Below, piece by piece: positions 1-30,454 of a stretch of DNA of 64,000 nucleotides (positions are counted from its first letter, which is position 1; the number at the start of each line of letters is the position of its first letter). The notes below the pieces were generated by a model that saw only the letters and a list, made by a program, of their open reading frames with translations, did no database searches and was not told the origin of the DNA. Location: positions 1-64,000 of the forward strand of contig JAFWYB010000013.1 of assembly GCA_017517865.1 (NCBI GenBank), given 5' to 3'. The stretch comes from Clostridia bacterium. GTDB taxonomy: Bacteria > Bacillota > Clostridia > Oscillospirales > Acutalibacteraceae. Both the position numbers and the translations under genes were made by a program.

Positions 1-18
1 TGTTTTTATACTTCTCAT
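1..18 (-). CDS. 5' end of a second tyrosine recombinase gene (partial)
   Basis: Read leftward, positions 18-1 give the same ATG and five following codons (MRSIKT) as the recombinase at 7239, with the same GAGGAG ribosome binding site ahead of it. The rest lies outside the window. It is therefore inferred, not seen, that a whole second recombinase gene is there. Confidence 0.55.
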
Positions 19-92
19 TTGATCACTCCTCGGAATTTTGAAAATGTGTTCGCAAAATTATTTTAACAGAATTTCGAGGAGGTTTGATAGAA

Positions 93-123
93 AACTTACA
101 ATAACTGTTAATTATTGTGAGTT
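93..123. other. Putative tyrosine-recombinase crossover site (left)
   Basis: Two 12-bp arms (AACTTACAATAA and TTATTGTGAGTT) are inverted around a 7-bp spacer CTGTTAA, with one mismatch between the arms. A short arm-spacer-arm palindrome with a 6-8 bp overlap is the classic binding and strand-exchange site of tyrosine recombinases. Its place at the inner edge of the repeat, beside a recombinase gene, fits that role. The site call is inferred from architecture only. Confidence 0.7.
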
Positions 124-137
124 ACTAAATCAATATT

Positions 138-580
138 TTATAGTTGCAAAAACATAAAGTGTTCTGAAAAGGAAAAACTAAATTTCTTATACAAATAAAC
201 TCTATCCTCAGATGAATTTAAACGAATTAATGTGTATCCTTTATTTTTTGCTTCTTCAATAATTTTTTCTAATAAAACACTCGCTGTACATTGTCCTCTA
301 TACTCAATTTAATGTAAAAACATTAGTGATATATGCAAATTTCCCACTTGGATTTGATAGTGAAGGTGTTACACGAAAAAAGCAAATACCACGGTTAGAA
401 ATAATACCATCATCATTTTCGGGTACCCAAAACATAGTTTCATTTGAAGATAAAGTAGTGCTGAAAAATTCTATCAAATTTTCTTCAATATTATTTTCTC
501 GCTCGTGTTTTACATTTATCATTTTTTCGTAATTCAATAAGAGTATTAATATCATTTATTATTGCTTTCCTAAAATTCAT
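138..580 (-). pseudogene. GNAT-family N-acetyltransferase, two frameshifts
   Basis: Read from an ATG at 580 with a GAGGTG ribosome binding site, the gene gives MNFRKAIINDINTLIELRK. It then shifts frame in a six-A run (522-527) into MINVKHERENN and on to GKFAYITNVFTLN. It shifts again near 307 into EYRGQCTASVLLEKIIEEA and RVYLYKKFSF, ending at 138. The pieces together make a normal ~146-residue GNAT fold, with the R/Q-x-x-G/A acetyl-CoA loop partly degraded (RGQCTA). Both shifts are single extra bases, so either the gene is dead or the assembly has homopolymer errors. Its role in the cassette is unknown. Confidence 0.7.
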
Positions 581-616: not shown

Positions 617-3442
617 ATGAAAAATAATAAACATATTAGATATTTAAAAATAGTAATCAATATAGTTTCAAACAACATATATTTTTTTATTGGTTTTATG
701 ATTACTTTTAGCATTTTTCTATTATTAGAACCATTAGAACCGATACTCACAAAAATACTAAACTATATATCTTCAAACCACATTATAATAGATGAAAAAC
801 ATTCATCTATTATTCAAATTGTTTTAGAGGTCTTGCTAAGTGTGCTTTTAGGGGAGATATTAAACTTGATTCTTGAATTTTTCACAAAATCAAAAAAAGA
901 AGCACGTTTACTGCAAAAATCTGTTAGGAGAAATTGGATATATACTCATTTTTATAAGTTATATAAAAAATATAATCCTTTAAATTATTTATCACTATTA
1001 TTTATCAATGTTTTTGTTCATGGAAGACCAATCAATTATCATAATCAAAATGAGCACATCCAATCATTAACAAATAGAATGCTTGAATCTACGAATGATA
1101 AACATATTATATGGGTTGTAGGTGAAGCATACAGCGGAAAAACGACAACCGTTTTTCGCTTTTTAGAAAATATAGCTCAAGAACAACCTTTATTTGAAAA
1201 ATATGAAAAAAACATTTATTATTTCGATTTAGGTAATAATCAGTTTTCAACAAAAAAATTGATAAATGATATTGAGTTGAGAAAATATATTAACAGTTTA
1301 ATTATTTTAGATAATGTTCACAAATTAAATAACCATGATTTGGTATGTTTTATTGTTGGAATGGAATCATGTCATCATAATGTTGACAGAATAATATGTT
1401 TATCAAGAGAATTAGAGTCTTTTTGCTATTCTCAAGAAACATTTGAAAGATTATCAGATTTTATAAACAAAAATACAGAAAGACTTGACATAAAAAGCAG
1501 TGGTTTTAAAATAAGCGAAAGTAAATTTTTACTTGAGGAAATCAAATTACACCTAAATGTAAAAGAATTTGAAAAGTTTTGTTTGCAAACAATCGGCGAT
1601 ACAACATACAGTAATCCCATAATGATACTTCAATGCTATAACTTGTATTGGCTATCAAATTCTAAAATAAAAAAGAAATATGTTATCGATTTGTTCAAAG
1701 CAATTAACAATGCAACAAATCATAGTATTAAAACATGTTTACTCTCTTTCATAATTCATGCATCTTTATTTTCAGGCGGATTTGAAGATTCGTGGATAGA
1801 TGAATACATAAAAAAGTCATTTACATTTCCAACAAATATTTTTGCTAAATTTCATTTAAAGCTTCTAAAAGAAACTGGATTTATCAGTACAACAAATGGT
1901 ACACATATTAACTGGTTTGCTTTTCATGAACAAATTGCAAAAATATATTTTAAAGAGATTCTTACATATAATAAGTATTATGATGCAAATAGTGATATAA
2001 TAAAATATTTAATAATCAAAAACAAAGAGCTAAAAAACTATGCAAATGCTTGGAAGTACTCGATTATTCTTGATATTAATTATAAAGATACTGATAAACT
2101 ATTTGATAAGGCTTTGGAATATGTGAATTTTAAAACTTTTTTGGAAGATACCATTTTTATATGTGATTCAATGAAACTAAATTCTAATAATTTTCTGCAA
2201 AACTTTGGTATCTTATATGATAGAATTGGCGAATTATCTAAATCAGCTGAATACTTTGATATGCAATTAAAAATCAATTTCGATCCTGTTGTATATATAA
2301 ACTACATTCAAGTTGATCACTCGCAATATTCAGATGAAGCAATACAACTACTGCTAAAACACCATGACCCATACTGCAATTTAGCTGCAATGTATTGGAA
2401 ATTACATATTGATTTGCATGATGGAATATTTAGCTTTAAAGCATTTTCAGATATGCTAGATATTTTTATCAAAGAGAAATCAATTATTATTTCCAATCAA
2501 CCATATTATGGTAAACATTTATTACGAAGATGGTATTTTGATTGCTTTAGATGTTATTATTTGTCTGGACAGTTAAATCCATATCTTTTGAGTAATATCA
2601 TGAACTCAGAAATTAGTCAAGAATTGGAGCAGCTTGTTGAAACTGAAGCATATAATATAAAATTTAGAAAAGCTTTCTATTTGCATTATGATATTTTATT
2701 TCTTATTGGTGTCCTCGAAAAATACTCATTTGATGAGTATGAAAAGTGGGATTCTGTAATGCTTGGCGAAAATAAAGTTCTTCCTTTAAAGATGATTGCC
2801 CAAAAATATGAATGTAGCATAATGGAATACATCGCCAAACAAGCAGAAGAATACTATATTCAATCATCTGTGGCAATGAAAAATATTATGGATAAATCAT
2901 ATCGTTATTCAGATCTTAGAATATGGGAATTACAATTGGCAAAAGATAATGTAACAATTACTGATATTAAGAATAATGAGGTGTTATTGGGCAACTATAT
3001 AGAACATTCAACAAATATCAAAATTGATGAATATGTGGCTTATGGTTATACTTATCTTTTAAAAACATATTTAGTTGGTTTATTTAGTTACGATACTGAA
3101 TATGATGACAATACACTTAAGGGAAGCACAAAGGACAACCTATATATCTCTGATGAAAAAATAACCAATTGTTTCGAAAACATAAAAATGTATCATGACA
3201 AGTATAGAGATTCAAGAAACAATGAGTATTGTATGTTTCGTTTAGAACTTTATAAAACACTATATTCTATCATTTCAAACAAAAATAAAAATCCATTAGA
3301 TGCAATTAAAACACTAAAAACAAAAGCTGAAAATAAAAATTATCACCGAGAAACTATGCTTTTAGAAGTTTTAATTAAAAATAATTGCAGTCGTCTAACA
3401 ATAAAAAATATATTTAAGTATTATCCATTGGTTCTTCAATAA
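617..3442 (+). CDS. Membrane-anchored STAND-like P-loop NTPase
   Basis: The 941-residue protein starts after AAAGGATG. Two hydrophobic segments (about residues 20-40 and 63-88) should anchor it in the membrane. A P-loop follows at 169-177 (GEAYSGKTT), with a Walker B strand at about 227-235 (SLIILDNVH) and an ICLSRE strand at about 259. The rest is a long helical, Tyr-rich region resembling TPR-type superstructure repeats. This layout of anchor, NTPase and helical repeats is that of STAND-type switches, many of which act in phage defence or regulated cell death. That role is inference. The gene starts 36 bp from the divergent GNAT remnant, and its last 29 bp overlap the end of the convergent PLP-enzyme gene. 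It is very AT-rich. Confidence 0.75.
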   Translation: MKNNKHIRYLKIVINIVSNNIYFFIGFMITFSIFLLLEPLEPILTKILNYISSNHIIIDEKHSSIIQIVLEVLLSVLLGEILNLILEFFTKSKKEARLLQKSVRRNWIYTHFYKLYKKYNPLNYLSLLFINVFVHGRPINYHNQNEHIQSLTNRMLESTNDKHIIWVVGEAYSGKTTTVFRFLENIAQEQPLFEKYEKNIYYFDLGNNQFSTKKLINDIELRKYINSLIILDNVHKLNNHDLVCFIVGMESCHHNVDRIICLSRELESFCYSQETFERLSDFINKNTERLDIKSSGFKISESKFLLEEIKLHLNVKEFEKFCLQTIGDTTYSNPIMILQCYNLYWLSNSKIKKKYVIDLFKAINNATNHSIKTCLLSFIIHASLFSGGFEDSWIDEYIKKSFTFPTNIFAKFHLKLLKETGFISTTNGTHINWFAFHEQIAKIYFKEILTYNKYYDANSDIIKYLIIKNKELKNYANAWKYSIILDINYKDTDKLFDKALEYVNFKTFLEDTIFICDSMKLNSNNFLQNFGILYDRIGELSKSAEYFDMQLKINFDPVVYINYIQVDHSQYSDEAIQLLLKHHDPYCNLAAMYWKLHIDLHDGIFSFKAFSDMLDIFIKEKSIIISNQPYYGKHLLRRWYFDCFRCYYLSGQLNPYLLSNIMNSEISQELEQLVETEAYNIKFRKAFYLHYDILFLIGVLEKYSFDEYEKWDSVMLGENKVLPLKMIAQKYECSIMEYIAKQAEEYYIQSSVAMKNIMDKSYRYSDLRIWELQLAKDNVTITDIKNNEVLLGNYIEHSTNIKIDEYVAYGYTYLLKTYLVGLFSYDTEYDDNTLKGSTKDNLYISDEKITNCFENIKMYHDKYRDSRNNEYCMFRLELYKTLYSIISNKNKNPLDAIKTLKTKAENKNYHRETMLLEVLIKNNCSRLTIKNIFKYYPLVLQ

Positions 3443-4616
3443 TATTTTTATTAAGCGGAACCAAGGAATTTATAAAATCACAAACATGTTGTGATTTTAT
3501 TCTTGGTTCTTCTTTTATTATATCAACGATTAACTTCGCAAGAATGTGTGTTTTATCAGGTGTTAATCCTTGAAGAGTCGCTGCAGTTGTTCCCAAGCGC
3601 AATCCGTATCCTAAATTGTATGGAAGTAGTCTATAATTGACTAACAAATTATGTTCTTCTAGTCTTTGCTGAGCTTTTAAAGCACAGTTTTGATCTTTAA
3701 GTGGTATCCATATATGATGAGTGGGTGGTAAGTTATCTTTTTTTTGAATTACTTTTAATCCAACATCAATTAAATTTTTTTCTAATGCTACACTGTTTTC
3801 TAATGCTAATGAAGCATATTTGTGCAACAATTCCATATTCCTTATTGCAGCACCTGCCTTGAATATATTGTCAGCATGCAAATTTGAAACATAACTTGAC
3901 ATTCCTGATAATATTCTTTGCCAATATATATTATTTTTATCCTTTGCACAAATGAGAGCCTGCTGTGGTCCAGGAAAATTTTTATGTAGTGTTGATAGTA
4001 GAAAATCAAATCCCATGTCAAAGGGGGTTTTATAGGTTCCCATCATAATATTTGTTAAGTATTGCGATGCATCATAAATACAACAACTGTTGTTATTAGT
4101 TAATTCGCTAAAATCTTCATAGTTGATACCTTCACTACGGTCAACAAAAATAAATTTAGGTTTAAGATTTCTAATTAACAATTGCGTTTCTTTTTTATCT
4201 ACACAAAAGTTTTTGTAATCAACAACCATATCAATTACACGATATCCCAATCTCTTTAAAATCGTTGATGTTGCATAATGACCGCCAGCTTCTGTAGGAA
4301 GTAAGAGTACTGAATCTCCAATGTTTCCAACTCCCATAAAAGTAACAATATGTGCGTGCAAACCGGATAACAACCGCATAGATAATGCATCGGCATTAAG
4401 CAACTTAGCCCACTTTAAATATATTTCATTTATTAATATGCTATATTGTTCTCTGCCCGAAAACAATATATTTGTTTTTTTCTTTTGTTCTGCTGTACGT
4501 ACTTTATCAGAAATATAAAATCCTTCAAGTTCAGATGTGGTATAGTTAGATACTAAATGTGGAAGGTTTTCTACAGGATTTAAAATAAGTTTGTTATCTC
4601 TTTTATTGTCATTCAT
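3414..4616 (-). CDS. SHMT-like PLP-dependent (fold type I) enzyme
   Basis: This 400-residue protein resembles serine hydroxymethyltransferase. LNPVEN near the N-terminus matches the SHMT LxxSEN region. GGHY (111-114) matches GGHL, YDASQ (181-185) carries the Asp that binds the pyridine nitrogen, and STLHKN (208-213) carries the Schiff-base Lys212. GLRLGT (338-343) holds the carboxylate-binding Arg340. It is too divergent to be the housekeeping GlyA. Relatives with altered substrates include threonine transaldolases of nucleoside antibiotic pathways, so an aldol-type reaction on a nucleotide-derived aldehyde is one possibility (inference). It begins 4 bp after the CYTH gene, so the two are one operon. 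Confidence 0.75.
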   Translation of the reverse strand: MNDNKRDNKLILNPVENLPHLVSNYTTSELEGFYISDKVRTAEQKKKTNILFSGREQYSILINEIYLKWAKLLNADALSMRLLSGLHAHIVTFMGVGNIGDSVLLLPTEAGGHYATSTILKRLGYRVIDMVVDYKNFCVDKKETQLLIRNLKPKFIFVDRSEGINYEDFSELTNNNSCCIYDASQYLTNIMMGTYKTPFDMGFDFLLSTLHKNFPGPQQALICAKDKNNIYWQRILSGMSSYVSNLHADNIFKAGAAIRNMELLHKYASLALENSVALEKNLIDVGLKVIQKKDNLPPTHHIWIPLKDQNCALKAQQRLEEHNLLVNYRLLPYNLGYGLRLGTTAATLQGLTPDKTHILAKLIVDIIKEEPRIKSQHVCDFINSLVPLNKNIIEEPMDNT

Positions 4617-4620
4617 ATTA

Positions 4621-5244
4621 CTACATCCTTTTTAGATTCTTTATACATATGCTATATTTATTTTCATTGCTGATATAAAAGCTACCTGATAGACAGACAC
4701 TATCAATAAGCTTTGATAATTCTTTTGATAGCAGAACATAGTCAACTTCATACTCTATCTCTATTTCTATAAAGGAAAATATTTTTTTGGGGGGTTGATT
4801 GACTATGCAATAATCTAAACAGATTTCAAATTGAATATCATTTACCGAAACGATATATTTCGATCGTTCAATTTCAAGTTCAAATAATGAAAACACCTGA
4901 AAATTAAGCTTATGATTATCTAAAAATTCACTTATTTTAGAGCCTATTTCATCATTTTCATTAATAAAAGCACTAATTTCTTGGCGTTTAAGTTCTTTAT
5001 TTTTAGTAACATTAGGCTGAAATTTGAATACTATTCTATTTTCTGGTTTTCTAATTCTCAATGAGCAATTTGAGTTTAATAATGAAAAATCTTGTGTGTC
5101 GAAATAAGTATCCTTTATTAAATAAGTTTGAGTTGATAATAATTGAATTTTACTTTCATACAAGCTTTTTTTTATAAATTTTCTTAAAATACAAACATTA
5201 TCATTTTCTCGTGATAAAAGTTTCAATTCTTTTTCGATTTTCAT
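4621..5244 (-). CDS. CYTH-domain protein (triphosphate-binding)
   Basis: The 207-residue protein is one CYTH/triphosphate-tunnel domain. It shows the N-terminal ExExK signature (E4, E6, K8), YFDT at 47-50, LRIRK at 62-66, FKF with K74, RQE at 87-89, and the late acidic strands ICLDY and FIEIEIE. The basic and acidic tunnel residues are all kept, so activity is likely. Known members are class IV adenylate cyclases, thiamine triphosphatases and tripolyphosphatases, and sequence alone does not choose among them. It is the first gene of a two-gene operon with the SHMT-like enzyme and lies 36 bp from the divergent PHP gene. Confidence 0.85.
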   Translation of the reverse strand: MKIEKELKLLSRENDNVCILRKFIKKSLYESKIQLLSTQTYLIKDTYFDTQDFSLLNSNCSLRIRKPENRIVFKFQPNVTKNKELKRQEISAFINENDEIGSKISEFLDNHKLNFQVFSLFELEIERSKYIVSVNDIQFEICLDYCIVNQPPKKIFSFIEIEIEYEVDYVLLSKELSKLIDSVCLSGSFYISNENKYSICIKNLKRM

Positions 5245-5280
5245 ATAATTTTATCCTTTGTTAATAATTGGAGGTAAAAA

Positions 5281-6198
5281 ATGCAACAGTTGCGTACAAT
5301 AAATAAACAGGGAACATGGTTTAAAGGAAACCTTCACAACCACACAAATCTTTCCGATGGCGAACTTTCACCACAAGAATTAATACAGCAATATAAAAAC
5401 GAGGGATATAGTTTTATATCAATAACAGATCATTGGATATATGGAACTCATCAACAATTTCAAAATGAGAATTTTTTGATTTTTGGTGGCGTAGAGTTTG
5501 ATATTCCAATTACGAATGATGATAAGAGAACATATCATATTGTAGCGATAGGCAATCCGCAAACAACCGCATTTCCTCATGGACATACTTTTAGCGAAAT
5601 TAGTAGAAGTTCAAATATTAATGGTTTAATCAATTTTTTAAATGATAATGAACAGATTTGTGTGCTGGGACATCCTTGTTGGTCACAAATTCAAACAGAA
5701 GAATTAGATAGAATAGAAAAATGCTTGGGGGTCGAGATATTTAACAATGGAACATTTCAAGAGTTTGATAAGGGATTTTCGGAAACATATTATGATAGAA
5801 TGCTATGGACTGGAAAACGAGCGCTATGCTTTGGATGTGACGATACCCATCCACAAACAAATTTGTTTGGTGGTTTTATACAAGTTAAATCAGAATCTTT
5901 GTCATATGCTTCTATTCTTAATTCAATACTTAGTGGTAGTTTTTATGCATCTAATGGACCGAGCATTTTTGATTTTTACATAGAAGATAACAAAGTATAT
6001 GTTGAATGTTCAAATTGTTCACTAATATCTATTCATGGAAAGAAATTTAAAGGTAAAGCACTATATTCTGCAAAGAACGATTTAAATTTTGCTTCGTTTA
6101 AAATTGGTGAAAATATGGATTATGTGTATGCAATATGCCAAGATGCTCAAGGACACAAAGCATGGACTCAACCGATTTGGTTAAAATCAGTCGATTAA
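5281..6198 (+). CDS. PHP-domain metal-dependent phosphoesterase
   Basis: The 305-residue protein has the full set of PHP metal ligands: NLHNHTNLSDG (H19, H21, D26), SITDH (D50, H51), GGVEF (E72), H86, LGHPCW (H131) and FGCDDTH (D187/D188, H190). Known single-domain PHP proteins act as phosphatases, exonucleases or nucleotide phosphoesterases. The last ~100 residues form a less conserved beta-rich tail. The ATG follows a good GGAGG site. The end overlaps by 12 bp the convergent NDPK-like gene. A role in processing a phosphorylated product of the neighbouring enzymes is inferred. Confidence 0.85.
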   Translation: MQQLRTINKQGTWFKGNLHNHTNLSDGELSPQELIQQYKNEGYSFISITDHWIYGTHQQFQNENFLIFGGVEFDIPITNDDKRTYHIVAIGNPQTTAFPHGHTFSEISRSSNINGLINFLNDNEQICVLGHPCWSQIQTEELDRIEKCLGVEIFNNGTFQEFDKGFSETYYDRMLWTGKRALCFGCDDTHPQTNLFGGFIQVKSESLSYASILNSILSGSFYASNGPSIFDFYIEDNKVYVECSNCSLISIHGKKFKGKALYSAKNDLNFASFKIGENMDYVYAICQDAQGHKAWTQPIWLKSVD

Positions 6199-7086
6199 AG
6201 AGTCATATGGTGATGAATATTCCATAAAACTGGTTATAATTATGACAAACTCGCAAGCCCAATCAAGTTTATGAACTTTTCGTAGATTTTCTATTAATTC
6301 AATCGTAAGTTTGTTTTTACCATTTTTAATATCTTTAAGAGTTTCTATAATTTTTGGGGGAATTTGTGAGTCTTTTTCTAAATCAATAATAAGTTTTGAT
6401 AATAATACAGATGGGTCTGTTTCCCTTATTTCATAATTTTTATTAGAAAGTTCTGCTCTTAAATCGTTATAGTCAATAATTTTTTTATTCTTAATTGCTG
6501 TAAAAATCTCTATCAGACTATCCCAATCAAAAAAAACACCAAGTTCTCTTAACAAGTCAGCGACATCATCAGGTGTATGTATATAATTCATAAACTTATT
6601 TATAGATTTCAACTTATACCTTATTGTATGTGGTTGATACGCACCCAGAGGAGTCGAACCTTTTATTTCAGCGAGAAAATCGCATGCATTTTTATTCTGA
6701 GTACATTTCTTATGTAGCACAAGAAGTACACAATCAAACTGTGGATAGAATTGTAGGTTAGTTATTATTCTAATAAGTGATGCGGCTGACCATGCATATT
6801 TCCATAATTCGGATATCTGAACATGGCTAATTCTTTTAATGCAGTAGTAAACTAAATCAAAATCTTTAAGCAAAGCAATTAATTCATTTGTTTTATTAAG
6901 TATTAAAGTTTCGGGTTTTATCATTAAATAAGTATAATCTTTCAATGTTTTGGCTAAATTATTTTCCAATATAAAATTTGCAGCCTCGAACGAAAGTTCG
7001 AAATATAAATCTTTAGAAAAAAGCTCTCTTTTTTTTATTGTTGTATTCAATTCTTCCCATGGAATATTTTCATTATGTAAAAACAT
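6187..7086 (-). CDS. NDP-kinase-like domain protein
   Basis: In this 299-residue protein, residues about 51-186 match a divergent nucleoside diphosphate kinase. YTYLMIKPET (51-60) gives the triphosphate-contacting Lys57. STPLGAYQPHTIRYK (144-158) parallels the NPxxAxxGTIRGD region and keeps Arg156. NYIH (167-170) gives Asn167 and the phosphoryl-acceptor His170, followed by DDVADLLRELGVFF like the SVExAxxEIxxWF helix. The usual loop arginine before the ExxP turn is not evident. About 50 extra N-terminal and 110 extra C-terminal helical residues are not NDPK. The ATG follows GAAGGGGA. Function is unknown, but phosphotransfer to a nucleotide is plausible. Confidence 0.65.
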   Translation of the reverse strand: MFLHNENIPWEELNTTIKKRELFSKDLYFELSFEAANFILENNLAKTLKDYTYLMIKPETLILNKTNELIALLKDFDLVYYCIKRISHVQISELWKYAWSAASLIRIITNLQFYPQFDCVLLVLHKKCTQNKNACDFLAEIKGSTPLGAYQPHTIRYKLKSINKFMNYIHTPDDVADLLRELGVFFDWDSLIEIFTAIKNKKIIDYNDLRAELSNKNYEIRETDPSVLLSKLIIDLEKDSQIPPKIIETLKDIKNGKNKLTIELIENLRKVHKLDWACEFVIIITSFMEYSSPYDSLID

Positions 7087-7114
7087 TTCTATCCCCTTCT
7101 ATAATTTGTTTATA

Positions 7115-7142
7115 ATTATATTAAAAAGATAACAACTCACAA
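7115..7142 (-). promoter_or_regulatory. Candidate promoter of the NDPK-like gene
   Basis: Leftward TTGTGA (7142-7137) and TATAAT (7120-7115) are 16 nt apart, about 30 bp before the gene. The -35 box lies inside the inner arm of the putative crossover site, so a bound recombinase would cover it. The arm moves with the segment, so inversion would not separate promoter from gene. Confidence 0.45.
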
Positions 7143-7164
7143 TAATTAACAGTTATTGTAAGTT
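7134..7164. other. Putative tyrosine-recombinase crossover site (right)
   Basis: This is the inverted copy of the site at 93-123, with the 7-bp spacer at 7146-7152. The two sites are in inverted orientation with asymmetric, identical spacers. Recombination between them would therefore invert the intervening ~7 kb rather than delete it. Confidence 0.7.
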
Positions 7165-7256
7165 TTCTATCAAACCTCCTCGAAATTCTGTTAAAATAAT
7201 TTTGCGAACACATTTTCAAAATTCCGAGGAGTGATCAAATGAGAAGTATAAAAACA
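7134..7256. repeat. Right copy of 123-bp perfect inverted repeat
   Basis: This is the reverse complement of positions 1-123. It covers the upstream region, ribosome binding site and first six codons of the intact tyrosine recombinase gene at 7239. Its inner end is the putative crossover palindrome at 7134-7164. Together with the left copy it encloses 7,010 bp. Confidence 0.97.
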
Positions 7257-8150
7257 GCAAGTGATGAATTTATACAAGTCATCCAATCTACAAAAAATTT
7301 ATCCGATAAAACGATAACAGCATACCGTTCGGATTTAAAAGATTTTCAGGTGTTTCTGCAAGACAAAAAACTTGATGAAACGGTTATCCTGAAATATGTG
7401 CAAGTGCTATCCAAAGAGCGTGGGCTCAAAGATAACACAATTTGCCGAAAGTTAATTACATTGAAAATGTTTTTCAGTTTCCTTTATGAGCAAGGTTATA
7501 CTGATGTCAATTATTATCAGAATCACCATTTCCGTTATAAGAAAGAACGCAGACTTCCAAAAACACTGGCTATTAAAGAAACATCAAAACTGCTCACATA
7601 TTTAAGTAACAGTGCCGAAAATGAAACAACGGTTTTTGAATTATGGAAGAATTACCGTAATCTTGCTTTGATTGATGTATTAATCAGTACCGGTATAAGA
7701 ATTGCTGAGGCTTCAAACATCGCACTTGGTGATGTGATTTTTTCTGAACGGACAATTCTCATCCACGGCAAAGGACGAAAACAGAGACTTATCTACATAT
7801 CCTGTAACGACACATGGAACAATATTACTCAGTGGCTGAAAATCCGTAAAAGCAGACCAACAAATACAGATAAAATATTTGTAAACCGTTTTGGTGAACA
7901 ACTGAGTATTCATGGAATCGAATATATCTACAACTCTGCAAAAAGAGCTTGCGGAATTAACGAGAAATCAACACCACACTACTTGCGGCATACTTTTGCT
8001 ACAAATCTTCTTGCAAACGGTGCAGACTTACGTTCTGTTCAAGAAATTCTTGGACACAGTAGTGTTGCTACAACGGAGATATACACCGAGGTAACAACAA
8101 AACGAAAGAAACAAGTGCTTAATAAGTATAATTATAGAAATAAATTGTAA
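7239..8150 (+). CDS. Tyrosine recombinase (XerC/D-like integrase)
   Basis: The 303-residue protein has a SAM-like N-terminal DNA-binding domain (about 5-90) and a catalytic domain with every active-site residue: STGIRIAEA (R154), HGKGRK (K178), PHYLRHTF (H247, R250), LGHSS (H273) and TTEIYTE (nucleophile Y282). The ATG follows GAGGAG. The upstream region and first six codons are part of the 123-bp inverted repeat. It most likely acts on the palindromes at 93-123 and 7134-7164, which is inference. It ends well before a strong hairpin at 8396-8429. Confidence 0.93.
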   Translation: MRSIKTASDEFIQVIQSTKNLSDKTITAYRSDLKDFQVFLQDKKLDETVILKYVQVLSKERGLKDNTICRKLITLKMFFSFLYEQGYTDVNYYQNHHFRYKKERRLPKTLAIKETSKLLTYLSNSAENETTVFELWKNYRNLALIDVLISTGIRIAEASNIALGDVIFSERTILIHGKGRKQRLIYISCNDTWNNITQWLKIRKSRPTNTDKIFVNRFGEQLSIHGIEYIYNSAKRACGINEKSTPHYLRHTFATNLLANGADLRSVQEILGHSSVATTEIYTEVTTKRKKQVLNKYNYRNKL

Positions 8151-8515
8151 TTAATACTTTTTCTCTTATATATAAAGAGTTGAAAACCGCAAAAAGTAAC
8201 ACAAAAATTTTAATGTTTTTGAAAATTGTCGAAATGACAGTTTTGACGCAGATATTTTGTTGATTTTGCCAAGCAATTTATATTTATACATATTAAAAAT
8301 ATCGCAATATAGTTTTATGTTCAAGATTACTTGCAAAAACGTTGCATTTTTCGACAAAAATGCATATTTTTAAACTCAATTATTACACAATAACCAACCG
8401 CACCATAGCAGTTAAGCTACGATGCGGTTTGCAATTTTTATTCAGTTTATATTCTTGCATTTTTAATGTATTCCATATCGTTCAACAAATTCGCTATTGG
8501 TATCTTGCCTTTTAA
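8151..8515. other. Intergenic region with bidirectional terminator
   Basis: I see no convincing gene in this AT-rich 365-bp stretch. A near-perfect 14-bp hairpin at 8396-8429 (AACCGCACCATAGC against GCTACGATGCGGTT) with T-rich flanks can end transcription from both the recombinase and the leftward genes beyond. It probably marks the edge of the recombinase-borne element. Confidence 0.6.
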
Positions 8516-8959
8516 TTATTGTGTTTCTTGAACAACATACAATTTTCCGCTTGACTTACAAAAAATAATTGTATCATTGTTTTTCTCTAAAACACACCAC
8601 TGGAAATCCTCGGCAGTATCAATTTTCATAGACTCTTCTACTTCAATTTCGGTTAGTAATGAGTCTATTTTCTCTTTTACTTCTGATTTGTTCCCCAAAA
8701 CAAACTCAACATTTTCGATAGGCTCTCCGTTATCCTCATAAATGCTGTACCTAATGCCATCACCTGTAAACCCTATATCGCTTTTAGCAGAATAGATTTC
8801 TTTAAAACCATTTGTAAAATCTATTTCCCACAATTTTTCATAAACATAAGTATTTGAGTTTACTCTGAAAGTACCGACAAAAAACAACACAGCTATTCCA
8901 AGAAAACCAAGTGATATAACTATCAACTTTTTACAGTTTATTCTCATATTATTCACCAT
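8516..8959 (-). CDS. Small membrane-anchored protein, unknown
   Basis: A 147-residue protein with one N-terminal transmembrane segment (IVISLGFLGIAVLFFVG) and a soluble extracytoplasmic part rich in beta strands. I do not recognise the family. A second ATG four codons in (8947) has a better-placed GGTG ribosome binding site and may be the true start. It follows the secreted protein gene by 16 bp and is probably its operon partner. Confidence 0.6.
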   Translation of the reverse strand: MVNNMRINCKKLIVISLGFLGIAVLFFVGTFRVNSNTYVYEKLWEIDFTNGFKEIYSAKSDIGFTGDGIRYSIYEDNGEPIENVEFVLGNKSEVKEKIDSLLTEIEVEESMKIDTAEDFQWCVLEKNNDTIIFCKSSGKLYVVQETQ

Positions 8960-8975
8960 CGTTTGGCATTAAAGC

Positions 8976-9731
8976 TTAAATATAAACTCCCATTTCAATT
9001 TTAAATGGAACAATAACTCCCGCTTCTTGTGCCTTGTACATTGTATTCACGGCAATTCCCTGAATGCTTGAGTAATCAGCTACTGCATAATCATATCTGT
9101 CATATATCAAGAACATATGATGGTTTGTATCGCGATAATAAGTAAACCGGTGAATTGCATAGTAAAAATCATCATCTACCGTTTTTCCTGTTTTCTCGAA
9201 GCTTGAACTGCCACTTCTGCTACCACTCGCATACAACCTTTTATATTCTGTCGTTTGAGAAATAAGAGTTTTATATACCGGATTATAAAATGAATCCAGC
9301 ACTTCATTTTCTTTAGCGTGAGTTAACAATTCTGCTGACAAATAATAGTCTTTGGAATTAAAATAGGCAATTACCGCGGAAACTGCGGGAGAATAAAGCA
9401 AATGAAAACTACCATATGGAATCAATAATGTTCCGTTCTGATAGCTTTGATACTCTTCTATCATATCCTCCACGGAAGATATCTGATTTATAATCTGTTC
9501 TCTTTCCACTAAATTTGATGTCTCTGCCAATAGTCTAACCAAACGCAATTTCATTTCGTTGAGTTCAGCAATAACGTTTGTTCCATTAGCAACAAGTTCA
9601 CTTTCGATTGATGAAACAGACTGATTTACAGACATAATTTCATTGTTGAGTGCCGTCTCTTCAGCATATACGCTTAACGGTAGGCTTAACAACATAATAA
9701 CAACTAAAAGAACACTAACTATTTTTTTCAT
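8976..9731 (-). CDS. Secreted protein, unknown
   Basis: The 251-residue protein starts with a clear signal peptide (residues 1-23, cut after VYA) behind a strong AGGAGG site. Residues about 28-80 are predicted helical coiled coil. The remainder is a mixed domain with Tyr/His-rich stretches (YAIHRFTYYRDTNHH). No catalytic motif is recognised. It leads a two-gene unit with the membrane protein at 8516 and has a sigma-A-like promoter about 110 bp upstream. Confidence 0.7.
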   Translation of the reverse strand: MKKIVSVLLVVIMLLSLPLSVYAEETALNNEIMSVNQSVSSIESELVANGTNVIAELNEMKLRLVRLLAETSNLVEREQIINQISSVEDMIEEYQSYQNGTLLIPYGSFHLLYSPAVSAVIAYFNSKDYYLSAELLTHAKENEVLDSFYNPVYKTLISQTTEYKRLYASGSRSGSSSFEKTGKTVDDDFYYAIHRFTYYRDTNHHMFLIYDRYDYAVADYSSIQGIAVNTMYKAQEAGVIVPFKIEMGVYI

Positions 9732-9925: not shown

Positions 9926-10147
9926 TTATAATTTATCATCTTTCTCATCAATGGTTTTATGGCTTTGTAATTTATTGTGTAAGCAATTAAGTTTTTGTAT
10001 TATTATGGTAGAACTGGCAATGTTCACTGCAGTCAACCCCATAGCGATAGCTAAAATCATTTGGATTGAATTTGAATCTGAAAGCGGTATCATAAGTGTT
10101 ATCCAGCCAACAAAAAGAAAAATTATTAACAGTATTATTGCAATCAT
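9926..10147 (-). CDS. Small two-helix membrane protein
   Basis: A 73-residue ORF with two hydrophobic segments (about 1-20 and 27-50) and a charged tail (HKTIDEKDDKL). The ribosome binding site is weak (AAAAAG). It starts 24 bp after the end of the secreted protein gene at 10172, so it may be read on the same transcript. An overlapping rightward reading frame looks like a shadow. Unknown function. Confidence 0.45.
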   Translation of the reverse strand: MIAIILLIIFLFVGWITLMIPLSDSNSIQMILAIAMGLTAVNIASSTIIIQKLNCLHNKLQSHKTIDEKDDKL

Positions 10148-10171
10148 CTTTTTATATTATAGCCCATATAA

Positions 10172-11158
10172 TTATGCGGCTGTTCCTCCCGTGTTGTTTT
10201 TTCCATATACTGTTCCATGGTATATGTATTTTTGGGCTATCGTAAAGTTTTCATAAAAATAACCTGTGCAGTGTTGCTCATCCATACCTAACCTAAAATC
10301 TATCCCGAGGGAAACTCCTGAACCGCTCAAGGAATAATTTGGAACAATGTTAATTGTTGTGTGTCCATAAGCCGCATCCACATATAACATTGCTGCGTTG
10401 GAGCGATTTGTTAACTGAAAAGTACCGTATCCACTATACGCAAAGTGTGTTAGTACACCATCGCCATCAGTTAATGCTAAGGCGAATTTAGCTGAAATGC
10501 TATTTGTATGCTCAGTTGAAAGTACCCAAGGTTCCACCTGGCTAATGGTTGAGTATGAAGGATGAACAGAAATTAGATTAGCATGCACTTTATTGTTTGG
10601 CTGTACGCAGTATGTAAAACTATTTGATGTGTTCGAGTCAAACACGACAGCAACCATATCGACAATTCTAAAGAAAGGAATTCTACTCCATGACCAAGAA
10701 TATTTCATATTCACATAATACATTGGTGTATTATTTTCTGTACGAGAACCATTACTAACATAGCTTAAATTCGAGGTCATAGTAGCCGTAGAAATGGATC
10801 TAATGACATTTTCTGGAATATCATCCATAGCTGCAGCTTTACGCAATTCTACTATTTCATCATCTGTATATCTGTAATTTCTCAACGTTTGATCATCTAA
10901 TGAAGCACGATTGCGAATTTCTTTTTCATAATCAAAATTTCTTATATTAATGATATCTTCTTTTGTACAGCCAAGAGCTAAAAGTTCCTTATCTGTTTTA
11001 GAAACTACTTTTTTGTATTCATCCCATTCGTTGATTGTTATATTTTTTTCGGCAACAAGTTCTCCAACATTTATCGCATAGGAACTTATTGAAAAAATTG
11101 AAATCAAAAAAACAAAAGATAAAAACACAGATAAACTTTTTTGGAAAAACTTTTTCAT
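10172..11158 (-). CDS. Secreted protein, unknown, ECF-controlled
   Basis: The start chosen at 11158 has a good CGGAGG site and begins a clear signal peptide (MKKFFQKSLSVFLSFVFLIS). A longer reading from 11203 would bury that signal. The 328-residue product has a helical region (about 35-110, rich in KE/DD) and then a beta-rich domain (MKYSWSWSRIPFF, DFRLGMDEQHCTGYF). I do not recognise it. It lies about 135 nt downstream of an ECF-type promoter (11301-11330), so it is a predicted target of the sigma factor at 17145. Confidence 0.7.
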   Translation of the reverse strand: MKKFFQKSLSVFLSFVFLISIFSISSYAINVGELVAEKNITINEWDEYKKVVSKTDKELLALGCTKEDIINIRNFDYEKEIRNRASLDDQTLRNYRYTDDEIVELRKAAAMDDIPENVIRSISTATMTSNLSYVSNGSRTENNTPMYYVNMKYSWSWSRIPFFRIVDMVAVVFDSNTSNSFTYCVQPNNKVHANLISVHPSYSTISQVEPWVLSTEHTNSISAKFALALTDGDGVLTHFAYSGYGTFQLTNRSNAAMLYVDAAYGHTTINIVPNYSLSGSGVSLGIDFRLGMDEQHCTGYFYENFTIAQKYIYHGTVYGKNNTGGTAA

Positions 11159-20274: not shown

Positions 20275-23200
20275 TTACTCAACCGTTACCGTGCAGGTTG
20301 CGGTTTTGCCGTTCCAGGTGGTAACAGTGATTATCGCCTTACCCGGTGCAATAGCCGTGATATTGCCCTCACTGTCAACGGTAACAACAGCCTCTGAGCT
20401 TGTTGACCAGAAAACAGTCTGATTGGGTGCATCAACGGGGGTAATTGCTATTGTGAGCTTTTCTGTGTTACCCACAGCCATCGTCTTTGCCCCTGCGCTT
20501 ATGTAAATTGTTTCCGGTGATTGGCTTACGGTAACCTTACATTCGGCATAAAGGCCCTTTTCCTTTGAGGTAACTCTTATTATAACCTCACCCTTCTTGT
20601 GGTAGGTTATGTTACCCTCACTGTCAACGGTAGCAATGCTTTCATCTGATGATGACCATTCAACCGCCTTATTGTAAGCGTCTGCAGGATATATAGCATA
20701 GCTGAGCTTGTGCTGCTGACCTGTGTATGCGCCCTTGTATTCGGCAAGGTCAAAGCGTATATCCTCAACGGGCTGGATAACGAGAATGTCAACGGTTGCC
20801 CTTTTGCCCGTAAGTGTTGATACGGCGGTTACTGTTGCGGTGCCTGCGGCGACACCCCTTACAATACCCGTTTCTCTTTCAACGGTAAGCACGGTACTGT
20901 CTGATGAAACGAAGGTAAAGTCTTCGTCGTGATCGGCGGGCTCAGACTCTATAACAAGCTCTGATGAAGCACCCTTGCTCAGATTGAGCGAGGGAAGGCT
21001 CACAGTAAAGCTTTCAACGGGTCTGGGTACAAATACCTTGCATATAGCTGCGATGCCGCTGTCTTCATTTGTGCAGGTAATATATGCGGTACCCGGGTTT
21101 ACAGCTGTAACAACACCGTTTGCATCGACCGAAGCGACCGTATCGTCATTTGATTTCCATTCTACCTCAGGGTAGGTTGCATTGTCGGGAGTGATAACAG
21201 GTATCAGAGTAAAGCTGTCGCCGCTCATAAGCTGAATATCGGTTTCGTTAAGGTCAATACCCGTTACCTGCTCAATAACCGTAACGGTACATTCCGCGTA
21301 TGCTTCATCGTTATCGGCAGCGGTAACCCTTACCTTTACGGTACCGGACTTTCTTCCTGCGGTGATAACGCCGTCTGAAACCGTTATAATATCATTGTCC
21401 TCACTTGTCCAGATGAGCTTGTCTGTTGTTGCATTTTCGGGGCTTATATGAGCAGAAAGAGTGAAGCTTTCACCCTTATGAAGGCTTATTTCTGAATGTG
21501 AAAGACTTATTGCGTCGATGCCGATACCGATATTTATATAGCAGTAATCAACAAGGCCGTTGTCTTCACTCTTTACGCTGATAATTGCCGTACCCTTTCT
21601 CAGCGGTGTAACAACACCGTTTTCAACTGTTGCAACAGCACTGTCGCTTGTATTCCAGATAAGGTTTTTGTTGCTTGCATCAGCAGGGCTTACCTGAGCT
21701 GTCAGTGTAAAGGGTCTGCCTGTAAAGCCGTCAAAGGAATTTGTGCTGATTTTTACATCTGAAACGTGCTTGAGTACTGTAATTACACATTCTGCTGCCT
21801 TGCCGTTATCCTTGGTTTTTACGGTGATTGTAGCCTCACCCTTTTCGTGAGCGGTAACAACACCGTTTTCATCAACTGTGGCAATTTCTTCGTCGGAGGA
21901 GCTCCAGATAATGCCCTTATCTGTTGTATCCTCGGGAAGAACCGTTGCAGTAAGCTCAAGTGTTTCACCGCAATAAAGCTCTGCACTCTGCTTGTTGAGC
22001 AGAACCTCTGCACTGCTTACCTTAACGGTAACCTTACACTGAGCACTGATACCCTCAAAGGCGGTGTTTGCGGTAATTGTTGCTTCACCCGCCTTGAGAG
22101 CTGTGATTTTACCGTTTTCATCAACAGAAACCGTTTCACTGTCTGAGCTTACCCATGTGAGTGACTTATCTGTTGCATCCTCGGGAAGCACTGTTGCAAC
22201 GAGCTGATAACTGTTGCCCTTTTCAATTATAAAGGTCTCTTCGCTGAGCTTTACGCCTTCGACGTATCTTTCAACTGTCACATTGCAAGCTGCCTTTATT
22301 TCGCCGTTTTCCTTTGAAACTGCGGTAACGGTTGCTTCACCTGTCTTAAGAGCGGTAACCTTACCGTCAGCTACGCTGATAATCTCTTCGTCAGAGGTGA
22401 GCCACTCTATATTCTTATTGTATGCATTTTCGGGAAGTACACTTGCAGTGAGTGTGAACTCTTCGCCCACGTTAAGAGTCTTTTCACTAAGGCTGATTTC
22501 AAGACCTGTAACCTGCTGACGTACTTCAATTCCAACAAAGTCTATTGCATTGCAGTTAATGCTCTTAACCGTTACATAGGCCTTACCTGCACTCTTTGCG
22601 GTAACTTTGCCATTTTTATCAACGGTAAGTATTCTTTCGTCGCTGACCTTGTATACCGCACTCTTATCGGTTGTATCCTCGGGAAGAACTGTTACGGTGA
22701 TATCGCCGCTTTCGCCTACCCAAAGATATTCCTTATCAAAGGTAACTCTTATGCTTTCTGCAAGGCGGATAACCGTAACCTTACATTCAGCCTTGATTTC
22801 GCCGTTTTCTTCTGATACTGCGGTAAGGGTTGCCTCACCCGTCTTAAGAGCAGTAAATTCATTACCGTTTACGCTGATAACCTCTTCGTCGGAAGAGAAC
22901 CATTCAACTTCCTTGTTATATGAATCCTCGGGAAGAGCCGTTGCGGTAAGTGTAAATACATCGTCAACCCTTACCGTCTTTTCGCTTTCGTCAAGCTTAA
23001 GCTCCGTAACCTTCTGACGCACCTCAACCTCAATGTCAGCTGATACTCTTTCACCGACAGCTGTTACGGTAATCGTTACGTTACCTGCCTTGTGAGCGGT
23101 AACCGTACCGCTTTCATCTACGGTTGCAATTTCTTCGTCAGAGGATGTGAAGCTTACGCTCTTGTCTGTTGTATCCTCGGGAAGAACGGTGGCGGTAACC

Positions 23201-26200
23201 TTACCGCTTTCACCTACCCAAAGGAATTCCTTGTCAAACTCAGCCTCAACGCTGTCTGCCATACGAATAACCGTTACCTTACATTCAGCCTTGATTTCGC
23301 CGTTTTCTTCTGATACTGCGGTAAGGGTTGCCTCACCCGTCTTAAGTGCGGCAAATTCGTTGCCGTTTACGCTGATAACCTCTTCGTCAGATGTGAACCA
23401 TTCAACTTCCTTGTTATATGAATCCTCGGGAAGAACAGTTGCAGTGAGCGTAAATACATCGTCAACGTTGACTGTCTTTTCGCTTTCATCAAGCTGAATA
23501 TCTGTTGCCTGCTGACGGATTTCGATTTCAACCAGATCTGCAACACCGCTTATGTTCTTAACGGTAATTGTTACGTTACCTGCCTTGTGAGCGGTAACCG
23601 TACCGCTTTCATCTACGGTTGCAATTTCTTCGTCAGAGGATGTGAAGCTTACGCTCTTGTCCGTTGTATCCTCGGGAAGAACGGTGGCGGTAACCTTACC
23701 GCTTTCACCTACCCAGAGGTATTCTCTGTCAAAATCAGCCTCAACGCTGTCTGCCATACGGATAACCGTAACCTTACATTCAGCCTTGATTTCGCCGTTT
23801 TCTTCTGATACTGCGGTAAGTGTTGCTTCACCCGTCTTAAGAGCAGTAAATTCGTTGCCGTTTACGCTGATAACCTCTTCGTCAGATGTGAACCATTCAA
23901 CTTCCTTGTTATATGAATCCTCGGGAAGAACAGTTGCAGTGAGCGTAAATACATCGTCAACGTTTACCGTCTTTTCAGTTTCGGTAATTTCAATACCCAT
24001 CACCTGCTGACGGATTTCGATTTCAATTTCTGCCTCGGCGTTACCGTCTGCAGAGGCTACCGTAACTGTTACGAAGCCTGCTTTGTTTGCGGTTACTTTA
24101 CCGTTTTCGTCAACAGTTGCTATATCTTCATCAGAAGAAGTGAAGCTTACGGCACTGTCAGTAGGCTCTGCGGGATTAAGAACAACCCCGATATCACCCT
24201 TTTGACCTACGTTGAGGAACTGCTCACTGAAGCTGAGCTCTATTTCTTCAACAAGGCGGATTACATTAACCTTAATCTGCTTTGTTATCTGAGGATTATC
24301 AACCGAAATAACGTTGATATATGTCTCACCCTTTGAAACGGCAGTGATTATACCCTCACTGTCAACCTTTGCAATTTCTTCGTTCTCACTTTCAAAGCGA
24401 AGCGCAGTATTGTAAGCGTCTGAGGGAAGTACGGCTGCCTGAGCCTTCACCTGCTCACCCTCGTTAAGGGTGTATTCCTCAGTGACGGCTATATCCTCAA
24501 CGGGAAGAACAACCTCAACACGGCAGAAGTCTATAAATCTGCCGTCGGCAGTTGTTACGGTTACGTAGGTCTGACCCTTATCAAGAGCAATAAGCCTGCC
24601 CTCTGAATCAATGCGGGCAACCGCCTCGTTGCTCACCTTCCAGCTTACCTTCTGATTTGAAGCGTTGGCAGGATAAACCGCTGCATTGAAGCTATAATCC
24701 GTACCCTTGTATACCGTAAGCTCGGATTCCTTAATTTCCACACCGGTTACGGGCTCTATTACCGTTATTATACAGGTTGTCTGAGCCTTGCCCATCTGAG
24801 CTCTGACGGTAACCGTTGCGGTACCGGGAGCAACGGCAATGAAATTACCCTCACTGTCAATCTTAACGATGCTCTCGTCGTCGCTTTCAAATGTAACTGT
24901 CTTATCATAGCTGTTTTCGGGAAGCACGGTAACCTCAAGCTTACCGCTTTTGCCTCTGATTATTTCTGTCTGTTTATCTGTAACAAGAGTTTCGGGAGGC
25001 TGTAAGCAGGTAAGAACACAGCTGTCCATAAAGCCGTTATCTACGGTTGTTACGGTTACTGTAACCTCACCCTCCTTAAGCACGGTGATAACACCCGAAG
25101 CCGAAACAGAAGCTATTGAAGAATCTGAGGTTGACCAAATAACATTCTGATTGTTTGCATCCTCGGGCTCTATTATTGCCTTTATTGTAAACTCGTCGCC
25201 TACAAGAACGGTATCCTCATTCTTTTCAAGCTTTACACCTGTAACGGGTTCAAGCACGGTTACCTTACAGATACCCGTCTTACCGTTATCCTCAGCAGTT
25301 ACGGTAATTGTTGCCGTGCCGCCTCTGAGGGCAACCAGATGTCCGTCCTCCGTAACGAATACGGTTGCGGGGTCTGAGCTGACAATTTTATAATTTCTGT
25401 TTGTGGCATCTGCAGGAAGAACGCTTACGGTAAGGTCTGCCTCAGAGCCCTTTCTTATATCAAGTGTCGATCTGTCAAAGCTGATTGATGTTACGTGCTG
25501 CTTAACCGTTACGGTGCAGGTTGCGGTGAAGCCACCCTCTGCAGTTGTTGCGGTAATTACAGCTGAACCTGCTTTAAGTGCCGATATCTCCCCGCCGTTT
25601 GTAACTCTTGCAACAGAAACGTTGGAGGAGGTCCACTTAACGCCCTGATTATATGCTCCGAGAGGAAGCACGGTAGCGGTAAGAGTTTCCTTCTCGCCGG
25701 TGTAAAGTGTTATAGCGTCTGTGTTGAGCTCTATACCCTCAACTGACTGAAGAACGGTTACCTTACAGGTCGCCTTCAGACCGTTTTCGCTCGTTGCGGT
25801 TACTGTTGCCGTACCTGCATTCTTACCCTTGATAAAACCTTTTGAGCTAAGGGTAAGCACTGTGCTGTCACTTACTGTCCACTTAACGGTTTTTACCGTT
25901 GCATCATCGGGAAGAACGGTGGCCTTAAGCTGATAATATTCGTCAACGTAAACCGTAACGCTCTTTGTGTTGAGGCTGATTTTTTCAACAGCCTTTCTTA
26001 TTTCCAGCTTACAGTATGCCTTGAAGGCACCGTCATCGGTTCTTACACCGATTGTAACGTTACCGGGGCTGACAGGCTTTACAAGACCGTTCTGGTCAAC
26101 GGTAGCAATATTCTTATTGCCGGAATACCAATATACGCCCTTATCTGTGGCATCGGTAGGTGTTACGGTAGCCTTGAGCTGAAGTGTTTTGTCAAGATAA

Positions 26201-30363: not shown

Positions 30364-30454
30364 CTTCATTACCTCGATTCAAAGTTGATATTTATCGGAA
30401 TAGATGTTATATATAATACTTATAATGGCATTTGACGCCAATTTAGTGCTTATC

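Follow-up and report, generated by a model that had tools for sequence, protein, structure and literature searches.

A putative phase-variable cassette alternating an immune-type NTPase with metabolic enzymes in a mobile island of a Clostridia bacterium

The stretch analysed here (the window) comprises the first 64,000 nucleotides of a contig, C47, in the 2.69 Mb genome of a Clostridia bacterium (G000). At its start, five genes coding for a membrane-anchored, STAND-like NTPase, a serine hydroxymethyltransferase (SHMT)-like enzyme dependent on pyridoxal phosphate (PLP), and CYTH, PHP and NDPK-like proteins lie between two inverted recombination sites, next to a tyrosine recombinase gene. We consider it fairly probable that this segment is a phase-variable, two-state cassette of mobile islands, in which an immune-type protein alternates with chemical-modification enzymes. 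The DNA switch itself is well supported. Alternative expression depending on orientation is what the sequences point to, most strongly in the sister locus L012 and weakly in the window, while bet-hedging in conflict with phages or other mobile elements would be an as yet unproven role of the switch.

All five open reading frames described in an earlier note on this DNA are present and intact (Table 1). They lie in a low-GC stretch at the start of the contig (25–33% GC in positions 1–18 kb of the window, versus 38–49% beyond 20 kb). That note took the five genes alone as the unit, and overlooked both the inversion sites and the recombinase. Two arms, identical over 123 nt as reverse complements, delimit the segment, and each arm carries at its inner edge a near-palindromic site of 31 nt which is dif-like (ATAA-N7-TTAT), its core resembling the inner half-sites of dif. 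Inward of the core, 8 nt are common to both ends, and outward all 100 nt up to the contig start; in the other cassettes described below, the outward identity is 1–13 nt in 10 of 11, and 25 nt in L077. The presence of inversion sites and a recombinase suggests that the two strands are alternative programmes, and not one co-expressed pathway.

Table 1 Features of the window and gene contents of the cassettes (L, loci compared; positions in nt).
Locus	Feature	Position	Strand	Remarks
Window	Left inverted arm	1-123		Recombinase-side flank and site joined to the NTPase end; at contig start; alternative-orientation junction
Window	Left recombination site, 31 nt	93-123		Core ATAA-CTGTTAA-TTAT at 101-115
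Window	GNAT-like (acetyltransferase-like) broken reading frame, by eye	138-555	-	Two frames: pieces 304-555 and 138-302
Window	NTPase gene	617-3442	+	941 amino acids (aa); membrane-anchored P-loop (STAND-like), helical/TPR-like C-terminal part, ends YYPLVLQ
Window	SHMT/L-threonine-transaldolase-like PLP enzyme gene	3414-4616	-	400 aa; 3' end overlaps NTPase gene by 29 nt
Window	CYTH-domain protein gene	4621-5244	-	207 aa; 4 nt upstream of SHMT-like gene
Window	PHP-domain phosphoesterase gene	5281-6198	+	305 aa; CehA/McbA-like, 70.3 bits vs cut-off 80
Window	NDPK-like protein gene with C-terminal extension	6187-7086	-	299 aa; outermost leftward gene
Window	Right recombination site, 31 nt	7134-7164		Core ATAA-TTAACAG-TTAT at 7142-7156, inverted vs left site
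Window	Right inverted arm	7134-7256		Runs into recombinase gene
Window	Tyrosine recombinase gene, XerC/XerD-like, presumed invertase	7239-8150	+	Starts inside right arm
Window, L011, L012, L031	SHMT-like enzyme vs transmembrane NTPase
L033, L107, L108	ATP-grasp ligase vs P-loop NTPase			AAA_16 below cut-off in L033, L107; L108 no Pfam match, P-loop by eye
L046	Carbamoyltransferase vs STAND-like NTPase			AAA_22 above cut-off; N-terminus nuclease-like by eye
L035	Pyruvyltransferase and glycosyltransferase vs TIR-like protein			TIR below cut-off
L102	SEFIR-like (below cut-off), SMEK and lipoprotein-like genes	4158-9328		Co-directional, between paired sites
L104	Spermidine-synthase-like protein vs unknown protein
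L077	Methyltransferase (by eye) vs GNAT-like protein (below cut-off)

Contig C47 has both recombinase-side junctions: to the NDPK end and, at its first positions, to the NTPase end. The site also stands at the start of a second contig from this genome, C39, here with another flank and, farther on, relaxase-, ParB- and serine-recombinase-like genes (assigned by eye). Since C47 has both junctions and C39 another flank, both orientations appear to be present in the DNA that was sequenced. Most simply, the true outer flanks would be C39 and the recombinase side, and both orientations would have been recorded, an observation from assemblies and not from reads. Contigs starting at most 6 nt from a site are C39 and C53 of the window's genome, C12 of G852 and C89 of G742 (G denotes genomes compared). 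The cassettes of L012 and L031 lie in opposite orientation relative to the recombinase, which is as expected for homologous loci with an inverting segment; their identities are 45% for the GNAT-SHMT fusions, 26% for the NTPases and 55% for the recombinases. At the start of C53 (positions 1–30; L062) a different site, with the spacer TTTGATA, precedes relaxase- and ParB-like genes (by eye), and possibly marks a second invertible cassette.

Successive searches gave 9, 4, 5 and 15 recombinase loci (two of the last in one genome), and these 33 loci were examined for pairs of sites having complementary (reverse-complement) spacers 1–9 kb apart. Such pairs were found in 10 of them (the window and 9 of the 32 others), with 0.0 expected (200 shuffles each) and none in 9 control chunks. 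Together with L011 and L012, which were found through the enzyme, they make up 12 cassettes, 10 of which come from one order and were selected by the similarity of their recombinases; the fractions given here describe only that sample. A tyrosine recombinase adjoins each of the 11 other cassettes too (9 of these were found via the recombinase). An immune-type protein, to use our own label, is encoded in 10 of the 12 cassettes, and enzymes of differing chemistry stand opposite in 9 (Table 1). Judging by its gene arrangement, L102 would be an on/off rather than an either/or cassette. In L077 (4552–4610 and 6350–6408) there are two neighbouring kinds of site at each end, GGATAATAAGAAATTAT and ATAACTATTTATTAT, which would suit the action of two recombinases. 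The locus L076 (ATP-grasp-like protein vs NTPase) has one recognisable site only and was not counted. The NTPases of the four ATP-grasp loci (L033, L076, L107 and L108) seem to belong to another family, a profile comparison aligning the P-loop region only (47% probability).

The SHMT-like enzyme and the NTPase form a core that recurs in five loci (window, L003, L011, L012 and L031), counting SHMT-like relatives with at least 37% identity and leaving out distant matches. The relatives are 41% identical to the window enzyme in L003 (a Sulfitobacter conjugative plasmid), 53% in L011 and 38% in L012 (both Clostridia), and 39% in L031, which comes from the same family as the window genome and was met in the recombinase search. 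The SHMT-like gene and that of a transmembrane-anchored P-loop NTPase are convergent neighbours in all five loci, in L003 with a methyltransferase gene between them, and paired sites surround the core in four. The NTPases of the other four loci are only 18–29% identical to that of the window. The companions of the enzyme vary: a methyltransferase in L003, a protein with NAS-like and decarboxylase domains in L011, and CYTH, PHP and NDPK proteins in the window; a GNAT domain is fused to the enzyme in L031 (by profile) and L012 (by eye). A tblastn search with the window CYTH, PHP and NDPK proteins (E 0.01), which covers close relatives only, found none in the other four core loci nor in 8 further cassette loci, and the three look like passengers of the window. 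The earlier note had inferred that the genes form one system. The SHMT-like enzyme and the NTPase do recur together in distant bacteria; the other three were seen only in the window among these loci. The five genes as one fixed system are not supported, the plasmid relatives of the NDPK-like protein (4 records) also lying in other contexts in all 3 neighbourhoods viewed.

The NDPK-like protein was found in 1 of 150 genomes of the family (the window's own) and in no phage record. One of its plasmid relatives (L004, Enterobacter, 9953–11005) belongs to a gene cluster of biosynthetic appearance, together with an aminotransferase, a U32 peptidase, a nucleotidyltransferase and transporters, and others are on Streptomyces plasmids (L005 and L006). 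A search for the SHMT-like enzyme in 398 genomes of the phylum (1e-20) gave two matches, the window and G392, the latter looking like an ordinary SHMT among housekeeping genes. Plasmids gave 51 records; among the best 20 of these 51, all but the Sulfitobacter match are at most 28% identical, and two of them were viewed. Phage records gave 3 weak matches, and pattern scans of viral contigs confirmed no relative. A further candidate, L013 (Woesebacteria, 26%), was set aside because its SHMT-like gene is a plain one with a threonine-aldolase-like neighbour (by eye).

The proposed mechanism is as follows. The XerC/D-like recombinase encoded just outside the segment would flip its approximately 7 kb at the two inverted dif-like sites. 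Because the outermost gene at each end is directed into the segment, the recombinase-side end would present either gene set to the flanking promoter region, which would meet the leftward set (NDPK, CYTH and SHMT-like genes) or the rightward one (NTPase and PHP genes), and a clone would hold two sub-populations. With transcription coming mainly from outside the segment, expression would be alternative: in one state a membrane-bound, STAND-like sensor or effector, in the other a modification or metabolite made via a threonine-aldolase-type reaction. The rightward (NTPase, then PHP) and leftward (NDPK, then CYTH-SHMT) sets may be read as interleaved transcripts from the two ends, since the CYTH and PHP genes lie back to back with starts 36 nt apart. 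The apparent alternation suggests either bet-hedging between strategies, or a sensor kept from the mark that it senses.

The placement of the start codons (taken as the first start of each open reading frame) is consistent with such an arrangement. Both outer starts lie 3–87 nt inside the sites in 9 of the 11 convergent cassettes, the window (501 nt) and L046 (150 nt) exceeding this range. L012 has both of its ATGs at 11 nt from the core. That leaves no room for a promoter inside, so that transcription would have to enter from outside; the two ends agree in all 14 nt next to the core on its inner side, ATG included. Sigma-70-like promoters were tested against mononucleotide shuffles in 20 regions. 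The L012 match is on the recombinase side (p 0.02) and not on the distal side (p 0.56), and recombinase-side matches were also obtained for L031 (p 0.003), G678 (p 0.010) and L030 (p 0.057). A general promoter scan of the window was uninformative (75 matches vs 57.7 expected).

Several observations count against this reading. No such site pair was found in 23 of the 33 recombinase loci, several of which end at contig borders, and the left arm of the window may have arisen by misassembly across the 31-nt site. No recognised immune-type protein is present in 2 of the 12 cassettes (L077 and L104), the genes of L102 are all on one strand, and most of the profile matches behind the label “immune-type” fall below cut-off. 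The Sulfitobacter locus has no site pair, and inverted repeats in the 8.1 kb examined do not exceed 22 nt. As for expression, the window NTPase starts 501 nt from the site and the recombinase-side promoter of the window is not clear (p 0.23); the same goes for L033, L035, L046, L077, L011, G852 and G076 (p 0.07–0.81), and the distal side of L031 matches a promoter as well (p 0.007). At each end of the window segment, promoter-like matches arise from the inner site half combined with segment sequence, so that either orientation might allow transcription of both gene sets.

The 941-aa NTPase has the least certain domain assignment of the five window proteins, and would be STAND-like by its anatomy. 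It has N-terminal transmembrane-like segments, a Walker A motif (GEAYSGKT) and an hhhhDN motif, and its matches to Pfam P-loop, AAA and nSTAND models all score under the respective cut-offs (AAA_14 E 6e-4; nSTAND_NTPase5 11.8 bits vs 34). Among the five core NTPases the Walker A pattern is found in four, L003 having the variant APSGFGKT, and hhhhDN in all. Although these proteins are otherwise divergent, the C-terminal end (Y/H)-P-x-x-x-Q is kept in all five, which suggests a functional tail. The STAND NTPases of bacterial immunity (Avs and relatives) are alike in having a P-loop, a Walker-B-like hhhhDN and a TPR-like C-terminal part. The window protein differs from the Avs type by its N-terminal membrane segments, its conserved tail and the absence of any Pfam STAND model above cut-off, and its PADLOC matches are weak only (mad8 E 0.0051, Specificity_I 0.02). 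The other cassette NTPases gave no PADLOC match or mad8 at E 0.0016–0.0017, and the SHMT-like, CYTH, PHP and NDPK proteins of the window gave none. The Sulfitobacter relative lies near Swt1-type HEPN, MqsRA and phospholipase-D-like genes, and for the NTPase we infer an immune role. Plasmid records contained no match to the window NTPase, and only the protein itself when searched with the Sulfitobacter one. A profile search of 12 recombinase genomes gave a strong match in G146 and one weak P-loop match in G709; within the genus of G146 (3 genomes) only G146 itself matched. Adjoining the L012 cassette (6677–8591) is a gene pair matching the PADLOC candidates PDC-M12A/B, the first protein of which also resembles AbiLi and AriA.

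The nearest solved structure to the SHMT-like enzyme by sequence is that of ObiH, an L-threonine transaldolase (PDB ID: 7K34; E 9e-22), which we take to belong to the obafluorin pathway. Residues H113, D182 and K212 align with H131, D204 and K234 of ObiH (with a 12-residue numbering offset counted by hand) and are invariant in all five SHMT-like sequences; the ObiH residues are the catalytic His and Asp and the PLP Lys. The two enzymes are thus alike in sequence and in these catalytic equivalents. Unlike ObiH and SHMT, which carry a His three residues after the PLP Asp, the window enzyme has a Gln (Q185, invariant in all five), and unlike ObiH it is paired with an NTPase. It falls short of the NCBIfam cut-offs for SHMT (115.9 vs 335 bits) and for fluorothreonine transaldolase (98.4 vs 650 bits). 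As it is closest to ObiH and keeps the catalytic His, Asp and Lys, it is predicted to perform a retro-aldol/aldol reaction on a small amino acid, which seems likely.

If the cassettes do alternate in the way we favour, they may split a clone into cells with an immune-type STAND or TIR protein and cells with a group-transfer enzyme, the immune protein recognising, or being silenced by, the chemistry of the other state. This would amount to self/non-self discrimination or division of labour, with sensor and mark never in the same cell; we regard it as speculative and rather unlikely. A related explanation, which we find unlikely, is that of a guard and its marker kept apart: the NTPase would sense the product of the enzyme set, their co-expression would be harmful, and the switch would make producers and sensors, for allorecognition or population control. 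It would fit the differing enzyme chemistries facing an immune-type protein in 9 of the 12 cassettes, the pairing of SHMT-like enzyme and NTPase in all five core loci and the conserved NTPase tail. The Sulfitobacter pair argues against it, as nothing visible separates enzyme and NTPase where there are neither paired sites nor long inverted repeats.

A decidedly unlikely possibility is that the recombinase inserts or excises a gene cassette whose ends are the inverted repeats, the orientation having no regulatory role. The mobile island setting (low GC, and the relaxase-, ParB- and serine-recombinase-like genes seen by eye on C39) and the different cargo between similar sites would agree with this. 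It is at odds with the occurrence of both recombinase-side junctions in one assembly and with the closeness of the outer gene starts to the sites in most convergent cassettes; moreover, inverted sites with complementary spacers should give inversion and not excision. That the window is a natural-product biosynthetic island, with the NTPase as regulator or resistance factor and inversion merely tuning production, is very unlikely: the ObiH structure, the Enterobacter plasmid cluster around the NDPK-like relative and the NAS-like and decarboxylase domains of L011 favour such a role, while L012 and L031 hold one enzyme polypeptide only, and the TIR-like and nuclease-like partners in the sister cassettes look immune-type. 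The earlier note's single nucleotide-messenger or toxin system, possibly anti-phage, with all five genes acting together, is highly improbable, since the scheme rests on the passenger genes of the window, has no CYTH, PHP or NDPK relatives by tblastn in the other four core loci and spreads its genes over both strands of an apparently invertible segment, even though the enzyme families suit phosphate or nucleotide chemistry and the catalytic residues do appear intact (by alignment for the SHMT-like enzyme, by eye for the CYTH, PHP and NDPK motifs).

To our knowledge, inversion switches are known mainly for surface proteins, flagella, tail fibres and restriction specificity. The arrangement favoured here, a two-state invertible cassette, is closest to systems in which inversion links alternative genes to one promoter, namely Salmonella Hin (flagellins) and the tail-fibre segments of phages Mu and P1 (PMC8987985). 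These use serine recombinases and alternate variants of one protein, whereas the cassette has an XerC/D-like tyrosine recombinase with dif-like sites and sets an immune-type ATPase against metabolic enzymes. In the PinQ/StfE2 system of E. coli, recombinase-driven inversion is tied to phage inhibition (PMC12529663); PinQ is a serine recombinase and the inversion reportedly yields a chimeric protein blocking adsorption, with no NTPase-and-enzyme pair. Clostridioides difficile RecV and pneumococcal PsrA/hsdS are alike in having a recombinase, inverted repeats and mixed populations, but their loci invert promoter-like switch sequences or specificity genes, and the cassette inverts whole convergent gene sets. 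The earlier note knew of no described system with this set of genes, and indeed the literature searched (mostly open-access, without bioRxiv) contained neither this defence-like assembly nor a description of cassettes pairing immune-type proteins with enzymes. What appears to be new is a switch that would select metabolic enzymes or, as the alternative, an immune-type ATPase (or a TIR-like protein), one plan being reused for different chemistries. If true, this would explain a recurring class of island genes, undescribed as far as searched, and would suggest that entire immune systems of bacteria can be subject to phase variation. Such a switch may give clonal bacteria a new form of bet-hedging. 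It would then be asked whether a clone hedges between two strategies, and what the enzymes make.

Regarding the remaining cargo, the Pfam scores of the window proteins against their cut-offs are 39.2/27 bits for SHMT, 43.5/23.2 for CYTH, 28.8/26.4 for PHP and 27.6/27 for NDK. The last is barely above the Pfam cut-off, and the same protein reaches 19.8 bits against an NCBIfam NDK cut-off of 155. The motifs N-x-x-H of NDPK (the His in NYIH), ExExK of CYTH and HxH...DH of PHP all look kept by eye. The broken GNAT-like frame lies between the left site and the NTPase gene, a GNAT-like domain being fused to the SHMT-like enzyme in L012 and L031; a Pfam scan of the piece at 304–555 matched no family. 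Outside the low-GC stretch, the window also contains a very long open reading frame of 3364 aa (20275–30369, minus strand).

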